A stretch of 64,000 nucleotides of DNA from Rhodanobacter sp. DHG33 (GTDB taxonomy: Bacteria > Pseudomonadota > Gammaproteobacteria > Xanthomonadales > Rhodanobacteraceae). Both the position numbers and the translations under genes were made by a program. Shown here piece after piece: positions 24,247-28,393 of this stretch. The DNA lies in the NCBI RefSeq assembly GCF_014843005.1, contig NZ_JACYXM010000004.1, positions 374,530 through 438,529 of the forward strand. The letters run 5' to 3'. Below the pieces are notes generated by a model. It saw nothing but the letters and a program-made list of their open reading frames with translations, had not been told where the DNA came from and ran no database searches. Position 1 is the first letter of the stretch. Each line of letters begins with the position of its first letter.

Positions 24247-24343
24247 CGTGGCGCAACGTCCGCGCCCTGCCGGGCGCGGACGATGGCTCGACGCACCAAC
24301 ACCTGACAGAGGGATGCCGCCGCATGCCGACACGGAGGACGAC

Positions 24344-25447
24344 ATGAGCACACGCAGGCTGGTGGCCCTGTTCGACGGCACCTGGAACAAGCCCGAGTCG
24401 AACACCAACGTCGAGCGTCTGTGCCGGCTGATCGCGCCGCGCGATGCAGCCGGCGTCGAGCAGCTCGTCAACTACATCCCCGGCGTAGGCGTGGCGCCGG
24501 GCATGGCCCACCTGCTCGGCGGCGCGTTCGGCTACGGCCTCTCCGGCAACGTGAAGGACGGTTACCGCTGGTTGTGCGAGCAATGGCAACCCGGCGACGA
24601 AATCTGGCTGTTCGGCTTCAGCCGCGGAGCCTATACCGCGCGCAGCCTCGGCGGCCTGATCCGCAAGTGCGGCCTGCTGCGCCGCGACGGCAACGGCGCC
24701 ATCACCGATGCCGCGGTGACAGCCGCCTACGCGTTCTACCGCGACACTGCGATCAAGCCCGGCGACGACGACGCGACAGCCTGGCGCGCCGCGCACTCGG
24801 TGGAGACGGACATCCATTTCGTCGGCGTGTGGGACACCGTGGGTTCGCTGGGCATCCCGCACACCGCCGCGTGGTTTCCGTACGCCCGTGCGCGCTACCA
24901 GTTCCACGACACCGACATCAGCTACATCGTCAAGCACGCCTACCAGGCCCTGGCGCTGGACGAACACCGCGCCGACTTCGCCCCGGCCAAGTGGGTGCGC
25001 AACCCCGCGATGCTCGCTCCCGGCGAGTCGCCCACCGCGAAGAAGCCCGAGCAGATCGAGGTGGAGCAGCGCTGGTTCGTGGGCGCGCACGCCGACGTGG
25101 GCGGCGGCAACGACCACGACGGCGCCGGCCGCAGCCCCGACCCGCTGCCGGACCTGCCGCTGGCCTGGCTGCAGCGCAAGGCGATGGCCGCCGGGCTGGC
25201 CTGCACCACGCTGGTCGCCCCGGCTGCCGATGCCGCGCTCGGCATACCGCGCGACTCCTACGGCGAATTCATGGGCGGTATCTACAAGCTGTTCAAGCCG
25301 CGGTTCGGCCGGGTGATCGGCAACGGCATCAACGAGACCGTGGACGAATCGGTGTGGCGACACGCCAGGCTCACCACCTACCGTTCGCTCACACTGGCGC
25401 GGGCGATGCGCGACGACGTGATCGCCGCACCGCCCGGCGTGGCTTGA
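24344..25447 (+). CDS. DUF2235 alpha/beta-hydrolase
   Basis: A 367-residue protein of the DUF2235 family, to which several type VI phospholipase effectors (Tle) belong. The N-terminal motif FDGTWN is at residues 10-15, the nucleophile elbow GFSRGA has S93, and an Asp-containing strand, HFVGVWDTVGSLG, and a later His in RWFVGAHADVGGG complete a probable catalytic triad. GGAGGA precedes the start. There is no signal peptide and no neighbouring vgrG, PAAR or immunity-like lipoprotein, so it may be a housekeeping lipase rather than a toxin. Confidence 0.88.
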   Translation: MSTRRLVALFDGTWNKPESNTNVERLCRLIAPRDAAGVEQLVNYIPGVGVAPGMAHLLGGAFGYGLSGNVKDGYRWLCEQWQPGDEIWLFGFSRGAYTARSLGGLIRKCGLLRRDGNGAITDAAVTAAYAFYRDTAIKPGDDDATAWRAAHSVETDIHFVGVWDTVGSLGIPHTAAWFPYARARYQFHDTDISYIVKHAYQALALDEHRADFAPAKWVRNPAMLAPGESPTAKKPEQIEVEQRWFVGAHADVGGGNDHDGAGRSPDPLPDLPLAWLQRKAMAAGLACTTLVAPAADAALGIPRDSYGEFMGGIYKLFKPRFGRVIGNGINETVDESVWRHARLTTYRSLTLARAMRDDVIAAPPGVA

Positions 25448-25484
25448 CCCCGGGCCTACCCCATCGGCTAGCATGCCGGCTCAT

Positions 25485-25573
25485 GAGGGAGATGGCATGC
25501 CTCCCGTTCCGCCATGCGTTGCGCGCGGAACGAACCGCCCACGTGCGAAAGCACCGAAGCTGATGATGCCTGC
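25485..25573 (+). promoter_or_regulatory. fluoride riboswitch (crcB motif) aptamer
   Basis: The core matches the fluoride aptamer. GGGAG at 25487-25491 pairs with CTCCC at 25501-25505 around GATGGCAT. AACCGCC is at 25533-25539. A GTGC-GAAA-GCAC hairpin (25543-25554) is followed by the hallmark GCTGATGATGCCTGC (25559-25573). GGCAT (25494-25498) can form the pseudoknot with ATGCC (25566-25570). An extra 7-bp hairpin, GTTCCGC/GCGGAAC (25506-25512 with 25525-25531), is inserted after the first stem. It lies directly upstream of two fluC/crcB genes, the usual targets. Confidence 0.88.
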
Positions 25574-25592
25574 ACCACCGGATTCCGGCGGC

Positions 25593-25636
25593 GCAGGCGT
25601 GCCTGTCGTCGCGAACCATCGCCATGCAGACAGGAG
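25593..25636 (+). promoter_or_regulatory. putative SD-sequestering expression platform of the fluoride riboswitch
   Basis: GCAGGC (25593-25598) complements the aptamer's GCCTGC (25568-25573). CCTGTC (25602-25607) can pair with GCAGG or with GACAGG (25629-25634). The last overlaps the fluC Shine-Dalgarno AGGAG (25632-25636). The chain of alternatives fits translational control with release in fluoride. This is inferred from base pairing only. Confidence 0.55.
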
Positions 25637-25645
25637 ATGCCACCC

Positions 25646-26029
25646 GTGAGTTTTGCTGGATTCGTTGCCGTGGGCCTGGGCGGCATGCTCGGCTGCTGGC
25701 TGCGCTGGGCGCTGGGCGTGCTGCTGAACCCGGTGTTCCCGACCCTGCCGCTGGGCACGCTGACCGCCAACCTGGTCGGCGGCATCGTCATGGGCCTGGT
25801 GATGGCCGTGTTCAGCCACTACCCGGCGATACCGCAGGCGGCGCAACTGTTCGTCACCACCGGCCTTCTCGGTGGCCTGACCACTTTTTCGACCTTTTCC
25901 GCCGAGGCCAACACGCTGCTGCTGCGCCGGCAGACGCTATGGACCTTCATCCACGTGATGGCGCACCTGGCCGGCACGCTGGCGCTGACCATGCTCGGCA
26001 TCGCCCTCGTCCATAGCGTGCTGCACTGA
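25646..26029 (+). CDS. fluoride ion channel Fluc/CrcB, copy 1
   Basis: A 127-residue four-helix Fluc channel that exports fluoride. Family marks are GCWLRW near the N-terminus, GTLTANLVGG and the LGGLTTFSTFSAEA segment with the helix-break Na+/F- residues. The start is taken as GTG at 25646, nine bases after AGGAG; the in-frame ATG at 25637 abuts the Shine-Dalgarno and is unlikely. It is the first gene behind a fluoride riboswitch and is followed by a second fluC. Confidence 0.93.
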   Translation: MSFAGFVAVGLGGMLGCWLRWALGVLLNPVFPTLPLGTLTANLVGGIVMGLVMAVFSHYPAIPQAAQLFVTTGLLGGLTTFSTFSAEANTLLLRRQTLWTFIHVMAHLAGTLALTMLGIALVHSVLH

Positions 26030-26083
26030 CATGCCGATGCGAAACGCCCCGAATCGCCGCAGCACCCGCCGGGAGAACGCGCC

Positions 26084-26485
26084 GTGAATTTCTCCGGATT
26101 CCTCGCCGTGGGCCTGGGTGGCCTGCTGGGTTGCTGGCTGCGCTGGATCCTGGCCGTGCTGCTCAACCACCTCTTCCCCGATCTGCCGCCCGGCACGCTC
26201 GCCGCCAACCTCGTCGGCGGCCTGCTCATGGGCTGCCTGATGGGCCTGTTCGAGCGCTCCCAGGCCCTGCCGCCGGCCGTGCGCCTGTTCGCCGCCACCG
26301 GCTTCCTGGGCGGCCTGACCACCTTCTCCACCTTTTCCGCCGAAGCCAACACCTTGATCTTGCGTGGACAGTACATGTGGTTTGGTCTGCATGTGGCAGC
26401 CCACCTCTTCGGCACGCTGCTGCTCACCTTGTTCGGCATCTTCCTTATCCGAAGCATCCTGCGTCGCCCTACGGACGCCCACTGA
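26084..26485 (+). CDS. fluoride ion channel Fluc/CrcB, copy 2
   Basis: A 133-residue paralogue of the preceding channel with the same landmarks (GCWLRW, GTLAANLVGG, LGGLTTFSTFSAEA). It also begins with GTG, eight bases after GGGAG. Tandem fluC pairs in other bacteria often encode oppositely oriented subunits of a heterodimer, whereas single genes make dual-topology homodimers. Both copies look intact, so either arrangement is possible. It is 54 bases after copy 1 and 15 bases before the DUF190 gene. Confidence 0.93.
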   Translation: MNFSGFLAVGLGGLLGCWLRWILAVLLNHLFPDLPPGTLAANLVGGLLMGCLMGLFERSQALPPAVRLFAATGFLGGLTTFSTFSAEANTLILRGQYMWFGLHVAAHLFGTLLLTLFGIFLIRSILRRPTDAH

Positions 26486-26500
26486 TTCGAAGGAAACGGT

Positions 26501-26839
26501 ATGAGCTCGGAAACCCTGGTCGACGGTGTCTATCTGCGCTTCTACACCCACGCCCACGCCCGGCACGAGGACCTGCTGCTGTCCGAATGGCTGCTGGAAC
26601 AGGCCAAGAAGCACAAGTTCGGCGGCGGCTCGGTATTCCGCGCCGTCGCCGGTTTCGGTCGCCACAGCGTGGTGCACCAGGAGACCTTCTTCGAACTGGC
26701 CGACGACCTGCCGGTGAAGATCGAATTCCTGCTGCGCGAGAAGCAGGCACGCGTCCTGCTCGACCTGGTGCGCGAGGCCGACGTGGAGCTGGTCTACGCT
26801 CTCGAACCCGTCCAGTTCGGCATCCTCACCAAGGAATAA
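26501..26839 (+). CDS. DUF190 (PII-like) protein
   Basis: A 112-residue cytosolic protein of the DUF190 family, a ferredoxin-like fold related to PII regulators. Conserved blocks include LRFYTHAHARHEDLLLSEWLLEQ, GGGSVFRAVAGFG and LPVKIEFL. DUF190 genes are often next to or fused with crcB. Here it is the third gene of the riboswitch operon, so a role in fluoride handling or in regulating the channels is inferred by association. AAGGAAACGGT supplies the ribosome site. Confidence 0.9.
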   Translation: MSSETLVDGVYLRFYTHAHARHEDLLLSEWLLEQAKKHKFGGGSVFRAVAGFGRHSVVHQETFFELADDLPVKIEFLLREKQARVLLDLVREADVELVYALEPVQFGILTKE

Positions 26840-27972: not shown

Positions 27973-28015
27973 GGCGGCGTTTTGCCTGGCGCTGCGAGTC
28001 TTCATTCCACCCGCC

Positions 28016-28393
28016 GGGCTTTTTGCTCGACTGCCCGAGTCCGGAGCTCCGCACGCCGGGCTCTTTGCTCGGTGACCCGAGCCCGGAGCTCCATCTGCCG
28101 AGCTTTTTGCTCGGCGTCCCGAGCTGGGAACTCCAGCTACCGAGCTTTTTGCTCGGCGTCCCGAGCTGGGAACTCCAGCTACCGAGCTCTTTGCTCGGCG
28201 AGCCGAGTCCGGAGCTCCGCCTGCCAGGCTTTTTGCTCGGCGCCCCGAGCCGGGAACTCCAGCTGCTGAGCTCTTTGCTCGGCGGGTCGAGTCCGGAGCT
28301 CCTCCTGCCGAGCTTTTTGCTCGACGATCCGGGCTCGGAACTCCACCTACCGGGCTTTTTGCCCGGCGCGGCGAGCCCGGAGCCCCGGCGCCG
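28016..28393. repeat. minisatellite of nine 42-bp tandem units between cfa and parC
   Basis: Nine head-to-tail units of exactly 42 bp fill most of the 531-base gap between cfa and parC. Each unit has a stem-loop of the form CCGAGC-TTTTT-GCTCGG (6-bp stem, with small variations such as GGGCTTTTTGCCC in the last unit) followed by a CCCGAGC..GGGAACTC-type half. Units 3 and 4 are identical; the first and last are most diverged. As the period is a multiple of three, several frames stay open through the array, but no ribosome site leads into it. The flanks 27973-28015 and 28394-28503 hold no gene I can see. Confidence 0.95.

Follow-up and report, generated by a model that had tools for sequence, protein, structure and literature searches.

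The fluoride riboswitch serves as a model system for the transmission of a ligand signal to gene expression. In one general design of translational riboswitches, a sequestrator and an anti-sequestrator compete over one strand. For fluoride riboswitches, the excerpted text of PMC11077080 describes a single strand that is shared by the pseudoknot and the terminator. A 2026 study modelled the RF01734 aptamer together with a downstream hairpin; in its excerpted text the Pseudomonas syringae riboswitch and a Burkholderia example are translational controls, and the motif is read as covering both kinds of platform (PMC13273304). Some fluoride riboswitches are likewise presumed to act on translation in the available part of PMC8814607. 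The published work that we found centres on the terminator type, and the translational ones are mostly just named so.

The leader described here lies in a 64,000-nucleotide stretch of Rhodanobacter sp. DHG33 (GCF_014843005.1, contig NZ_JACYXM010000004.1, positions 374,530 to 438,529 of the forward strand), referred to as the window. With the transcriptional type of Bacillus cereus, as far as the excerpted descriptions cover it, the window has in common the aptamer core, a pseudoknot strand shared with a downstream hairpin, and a crcB target. It differs from this type in the absence of an intrinsic terminator and in an extra hairpin inside the aptamer, recognised by eye, and it adds a further segment, strand 3, that can either re-pair strand 2 or cover the Shine-Dalgarno sequence. 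The Pseudomonas syringae and Burkholderia type showed no termination in the published assay and is presumed to act on translation (PMC13273304, PMC8814607); the excerpts of these sources give no three-hairpin chain, and the type is set apart here by its descriptions, not by its leaders. Compared with the sequestrator/anti-sequestrator design the competition is the same, but the strand shared with the aptamer stands two steps from the Shine-Dalgarno sequence. No description of a fluoride platform with the three hairpins A, B and C (Table 1) was found in the open-licence literature, and outside the family a sequence-only model gave no credible hit better than E 3e-4 (see below). For these two reasons the locus is assigned to a known riboswitch class, its expression platform being an apparently undescribed variant.

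Table 1. Coordinates of the riboswitch region and the genes that follow it, counted from the first letter of the window.
Feature	Position	Strand	Basis or value
Fluoride riboswitch aptamer, RF01734 match	25479-25579	+	30.1 bits, model 1-64
First aptamer hairpin, GGGAG (25487-25491):CTCCC (25501-25505)	25487-25505	+	sequence, Rfam alignment
Extra hairpin in aptamer joining region, GTTCCGC...GCGGAAC	25506-25531	+	by eye
Hairpin A, strand 1 (25568-25573):strand 2 (25593-25598) plus inner pairs	25568-25598	+	-22.0 kcal/mol
Hairpin B, anti-A	25588-25612	+	10 bp, -14.8 kcal/mol; -16.4 kcal/mol with flanks
Hairpin C, strand 3 CCTGTC (25602-25607):GACAGG (25629-25634) plus inner stems	25602-25634	+	-14.2 kcal/mol
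Possible helix D, GGCGT (25596-25600):ATGCC (25637-25641)	25596-25641	+	minimum-energy fold with strand 1 locked
Shine-Dalgarno AGGAG of first crcB	25632-25636	+	sequence
crcB/fluC copy 1	25646-26029	+	GTG start, 127 aa; PF02537 CRCB, E 2.9e-25
crcB/fluC copy 2	26084-26485	+	133 aa; PF02537 CRCB, E 7.9e-27
DUF190 gene, adjoining the crcB pair	26501-26839	+	PF02641, E 4.5e-19

The two crcB copies are arranged in tandem and are about 65% identical to each other; together they may encode a fluoride channel made from two genes, or one may have arisen by recent duplication. Among named relatives, the CrcB protein is closest to those of Rhodanobacter sp. 7MK24 (91% identity) and DHB23 (90%). The gene 5' of the riboswitch (24341-25447) matches PF09994, the catalytic domain of T6SS Tle1-like phospholipases. 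Just 5' of the aptamer (25444-25474), the motif TTGACC overlaps the stop codon of this gene and is followed 19 nt on by TAGCAT, a motif that 41 of the 99 leaders inspected also have, no more than 35 nt ahead of the aptamer. The TTGACC/TAGCAT pair is absent from the promoter-scan output, and a scan of 25380-26120 returned neither terminator-like nor sigma-70-like sites. Elsewhere in the window, about nine 42-bp tandem units occupy 28006-28387, shortly after a cyclopropane-fatty-acid-synthase-like gene, the consensus unit containing the inverted repeat GCCGAGC TTTTT GCTCGGC. A t44 RNA (RF00127, 44757-44860, 59.2 bits) is the sole Rfam match above cut-off in the window.

The first-pass annotation had proposed a fluoride riboswitch aptamer at this position, and the covariance search agrees. 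The RF01734 core aligned end to end with both pseudoknot strands present (E 2.5e-6 in the local scan), the match sits 5' of the two CRCB genes, and no other match in the 3.76-Mb genome is credible (E 3.2e-6 for this one, 0.32 for the runner-up). The score of the aptamer falls short of the gathering cut-off of 34 bits, and for this reason it is not listed in the whole-window Rfam scan at gathering thresholds; the proposed search with the crcB motif thus returned a full-length match with a sub-threshold score. The cut-off is a curation limit, reached by five of the 15 genus genomes and 127 of the 233 family genomes. RF01734 membership is accepted because the position ahead of crcB is conserved, the model is matched over its full length and the genome-wide E value is 3.2e-6, and from its sequence the aptamer is predicted to bind fluoride. 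The loop of the first hairpin (GGCAT, 25494-25498) is complementary to ATGCC at 25566-25570, a putative pseudoknot that was assigned by eye and by analogy with the published aptamer as excerpted from PMC11077080. Two insertions in the RF01734 alignment lengthen the aptamer, namely the extra hairpin at 25506-25531 (by eye) and an enlarged loop of the second stem, which has 20 letters compared to 9 in the model.

Following the aptamer core, the first-pass annotation had listed four consecutive complementary hexamers, and their coordinates, as well as those of the AGGAG and of the GTG start codon at 25646, read exactly so. These are strand 1 (GCCTGC), strand 2 (GCAGGC), strand 3 (CCTGTC) and a fourth segment, GACAGG, which overlaps the Shine-Dalgarno AGGAG. 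Strands 1 and 2 pair perfectly, as do strand 3 and the fourth segment. Strands 2 and 3, in contrast to what was supposed, do not match hexamer to hexamer and pair as a longer bulged hairpin, so that the four segments give rise to three overlapping hairpins, A, B and C. Hairpin A overlaps the pseudoknot strand, strand 1 being common to both. In hairpin B, CAGG (25594-25597) pairs with CCTG (25602-25605) around a CGTG loop, U25606 is bulged, and 25588-25593 pairs with 25607-25612. Hairpin C covers the AGG part of the Shine-Dalgarno sequence only; it can be flanked by helix D, which is formable only with strand 2 free of A. Among 1000 dinucleotide shuffles, none folded as low as A and two as low as C, and the whole A-B-C chain was found in 3 of 20,000. 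Hairpin B by itself, equalled in 84 of 1000, is not beyond chance at the 5% level.

The same arrangement recurs among relatives. RF01734 matches were obtained in 13 of 15 genus genomes and 163 of 233 family genomes; the two genus genomes without one also have no CrcB match and are 85% and 87% complete, while a CrcB relative is found in 216 of the 233 family genomes. From 119 crcB leaders collected, we kept the 108 in which the aptamer was recognised by pattern, from 11 genera; the 11 that were dropped include that of G125, which has the platform, and that of G021, with an aptamer farther upstream. A joining-region insert of more than 12 nt is present in 83 of the 108 leaders (a count that excludes the insert of the window itself, clipped short by the pattern), and 82 of these 83 fold below -3 kcal/mol. 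The letters of the insert stem vary by species, e.g. GTTCC/GGAAC and GCTCC/GGAGC. The three overlapping hairpins recur in the 108 leaders, with strand 3 (GCC[TC]G) at most 16 nt after strand 2 in 103. For alignment, 82 of 84 non-redundant leaders were used, two g44 leaders lacking strand 3 being excluded. Strand 1 is invariant in all 82, and the third position of strand 2 is A in 73 and G in nine. The main spacer types, GG CGTG CC and GGC GCGT GCC, each leave a four-base loop in B.

Consensus folding of the 82 family leaders with RNAalifold recovers six pairs at the core of B and, in addition, three that join the strand-1 GCC to the GGC preceding strand 2; for the 13 genus leaders, A and C are in the consensus. 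One pair of the B core has changed on both sides, G-C replacing A-U in six sequences, each from genus g6. Among 45 leaders with the short spacer, pairing extends to 91.4% of the cells of B, compared to 27-59% for slid partners, and two pairs show two-sided changes, equalled in 25 of 500 shuffles; the covariation score of B in this set (0.134) is matched when one side is shifted three columns along (0.139). Hairpin A is nearly invariant in the same 45 leaders (99.1% of cells paired, no two-sided changes). Hairpin C is paired in 95.1% of cells in the genus, compared to 26-52% for slid partners, and its covariation there is nearly nil, with one two-sided change, equalled in 136 of 500 shuffles. 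The motif CAGGAG also precedes crcB in the aptamer-free genome G016. A mutual-information scan over all columns of the 108-leader alignment was dominated by misalignment and ancestry. As the pairs are mostly invariant, covariation barely tests the hairpins; the conservation pattern is consistent with A, B and C, and the covariation hardly proves them.

We propose, with a probability of roughly 55%, that the leader is a fluoride riboswitch acting on translation of the fluoride-channel operon by way of these three hairpins. Without fluoride, strand 1 would leave the aptamer and close hairpin A with strand 2; strand 3 would then be free, and hairpin C would cover the AGG of the Shine-Dalgarno sequence (OFF). 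With fluoride, the pseudoknot would hold strand 1, strand 2 would be free as strand 3 leaves the polymerase, and the two would close hairpin B with its four-base loop 17 nt before the second strand of C begins. As B would close before the second strand of C emerges, the ribosome could load (ON). We infer both the way in which fluoride would turn the switch and a sufficient lifetime of B.

The OFF half of this scheme agrees with folding predictions. The first-pass annotation had strand 3 cover the ribosome site in the absence of fluoride, and the predicted ligand-free fold does mask it, over the AGG only: with strand 1 free, opening costs 4.9 kcal/mol for the AGGAG and 7.8 kcal/mol for the stretch from Shine-Dalgarno to start, with C being as low in 2 of 1000 shuffles. 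The companion claim, that the site opens once strand 2 is freed, is not borne out by the folding models for the window. Locking four strand-1 bases, to mimic the pseudoknot, raised the costs to 7.1 and 10.0 kcal/mol, respectively, and locking all six gave 6.8 and 9.2 kcal/mol. Under these conditions strand 2 adds helix D rather than winning strand 3, and C lies below B by 4.7, 2.4, 2.3 and 3.5 kcal/mol in four energy sets at 37 °C.

These values suit a different reading, in which aptamer and hairpin A both exist, while in this species C forms with and without fluoride and B lacks the strength to prevent it, so that control would be slight or exerted elsewhere, e.g. via Rho-dependent termination or untranslated-leader mRNA stability. 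The start region of the window is no more open with strand 1 locked, the preference for C amounts to 2.3-4.7 kcal/mol at 37 °C, and 10 of 13 genus leaders keep C in the locked state. Nearest-neighbour energies are, however, uncertain without the folded aptamer or the ribosome, and 103 of the 108 leaders, from 11 genera, retain strand 3 even though its possible partners near the start differ. We consider this reading possible if doubtful.

Across the family, the translational scheme fits better than in the window. At least four expected pairs between strand 3 and the start region were found in 68 of 108 leaders with strand 1 free and in 38 with strand 1 locked, and at least four between strands 2 and 3 in 65 of 108 with strand 1 locked; in the genus, C reaches this level in 13 of 13 free and 10 of 13 locked, and B in one of 13 locked, with strand 2 misplaced by the pattern in G004 and G213 in all these counts (in G004 also in the hairpin folding). 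Upon locking, the region between Shine-Dalgarno and start becomes easier to open by over 0.5 kcal/mol in 65 of 108 leaders and closes in 12, and for the Shine-Dalgarno sequence alone these numbers are 40 and 25, with a median of 0.1 kcal/mol. The mean opening upon locking is 1.12 kcal/mol over the 108 leaders compared to 0.30 kcal/mol in shuffles (P about 9e-7, a value that ignores relatedness). For the genus the mean is 1.12 compared to 0.49 in shuffles, the window itself being negative and strand 2 of G004 probably misplaced here as well.

Exchanging strand 3 and start regions between leaders within genera caused no significant energy cost (exchanged regions did as well as native ones in 103 of 1000 trials for C and 68 of 1000 for B, g20 being the exception for C with 5 of 1000), and across genera none of 1000 swaps was as good, a comparison confounded by ancestry; strand 2 is misplaced in G004 and G213 in this analysis too. 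Overall, the OFF half of the scheme is well supported and the ON half plausible. The latter rests on the order of transcription and the conservation of strand 3, and it fits better in other genera. The notion that the order of the segments yields ON-with-fluoride logic is thus retained as plausible, but the opening itself is not predicted for the window.

The course of folding during transcription was considered as well. As long as the locked window RNA ends before about 25624, its best fold is B, another fold is already slightly better at 25628, and equilibrium folding favours C again, together with helix D, once the Shine-Dalgarno sequence is made. The estimated barrier from the early fold (B) to the final fold (C) is 6.1 kcal/mol, equivalent to some 0.02 s if attempts occur at 1e6 per s. 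For eight further members of the genus the early-to-final barrier ranges from 2.6 to 12.9 kcal/mol, with the exceptions that the early fold of G003 is not B and that the final fold of G005 keeps B. A co-transcriptional simulation was run in two settings, with two leaders in setting 1 and 59 of the 108 in setting 2; it is home-made, coarse and noisy, and some fluoride-free runs remained fully open throughout. In the window, the unpaired fraction of the Shine-Dalgarno sequence went from 0.26 without to 0.40 with the lock in setting 1 and stayed at 0.40 in setting 2, and that of the stretch from Shine-Dalgarno to start went from 0.46 to 0.20 and from 0.74 to 0.45, respectively. The genus means in setting 2 changed from 0.39 to 0.52 (Shine-Dalgarno, 13 members) and from 0.58 to 0.55 (Shine-Dalgarno to start), the latter value rising by more than 0.1 in five species and falling in four. 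This leaves two possibilities, a kinetic role of B or an omission in the models. Since the hairpins that are conserved and those that equilibrium folding prefers disagree in the window, it can be tested directly whether the switch is decided during transcription.

Two crcB copies are present in five of the 13 genus genomes (G000, G002, G003, G008 and G013). In three of the four energy sets (37 °C) these five favour C over B more strongly than all others, by a margin of only 0.1 kcal/mol in one of them, and G012 overlaps in the fourth, with G004 not scorable. A GCC shortly after the Shine-Dalgarno sequence, which in the window is the partner in helix D, is found in all five and in none of the other eight. 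Tandem crcB, the preference for C and the GCC may stem from one ancestral event. One may picture a kinetic pulse, in which B would open the Shine-Dalgarno sequence on the young mRNA before C and helix D close it again. The succession of best folds with strand 1 locked and the C preference of the tandem-crcB species, partly narrow as it is, are in line with this. A barrier crossed in some 0.02 s, the fold that overtakes B already at 25628 and the possible single ancestry of the tandem-crcB pattern all speak against it, and we hold such a pulse to be decidedly unlikely. If true, it would mean that the fluoride response is decided during transcription and is not an equilibrium ON state.

That hairpin A acts as a transcription terminator is very unlikely in the window. 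The hairpin is very stable (-22.0 kcal/mol), and two relatives in g2 have the same kind of hairpin with a T-run. Directly 3' of A, however, the window reads GTGCCTG with no T-run, and the scan of 25380-26120 was free of terminator-like sites; an intrinsic terminator is accordingly rejected for this leader. In the two g2 relatives hairpin A has retained its T-run, with strand 3 located beyond, so their platform looks like a terminator type with the same strands. An automatic table of terminators versus strand 3 was left unused, as its thresholds were crude and B helices of five pairs were miscounted.

What strand 3 would mask differs between lineages, its possible partners near the start codon varying among genera (by eye). 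In seven species of g18, strand 3 CCTGTTGCC faces [GTC]GCAA-x-CAGG at the flank of the Shine-Dalgarno sequence, with 88.1% of cells paired and no covariation. In another seven species of g18, CCTGTGTTGCC or a close form stands opposite GACAACACA or a close form, the partner then lying between Shine-Dalgarno and start. A leader from a different family of the order (L002, G057), with TCCTGCC as strand 1, GGCAGG as strand 2 and CCTGCC as strand 3, is consistent with this design although its letters differ. When the platform was searched for with a sequence-only model, 34 of 369 class genomes were hit at E <= 0.01. Outside the family a single match in these 369 genomes was better than E 3e-4, namely L249 (E 3.1e-5), which was rejected as false because it lies within coding sequence, a purD-like reading frame recognised by eye.

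These differences could be read as a lineage-specific change from the terminator type to a translational switch, with a fluoride pulse in the tandem-crcB clade, an extension of the translational scheme that we regard as unlikely. The terminator would have lost its T-run, hairpin A would have stayed and the strand-3 anti-A hairpin B would have been kept, while the target of strand 3 would have drifted between species (either the flank of the Shine-Dalgarno sequence or the region separating it from the start codon). In the tandem-crcB clade, the freed strand 2 would strengthen the mask through helix D, so that a short pulse and not an equilibrium ON state would be expected. We infer the order of change, from terminator type to translational type. 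With leaders across the family that have A and B and differ in the cover of the start site, it can be asked how the platform moved from transcription to translation, and the same set lets one ask whether transcription is the stage at which the switch is set.

Fortuitous pairing, given the high GC content of the DNA, would agree with the within-genus swaps not being significantly worse and with the 84 of 1000 shuffles that equal B alone, but it is scarcely credible given the shuffle counts for A (0/1000), C (2/1000) and the chain (3/20,000) and the strands kept across 108 leaders.

The number of fluoride aptamers per genome reaches eight or nine in some relatives and fourteen in G107. In G021 and G023 (L001, L004 and L030), most aptamers lie within about 30 kb, some of them as divergent pairs, and these clusters look like fluoride-resistance islands.
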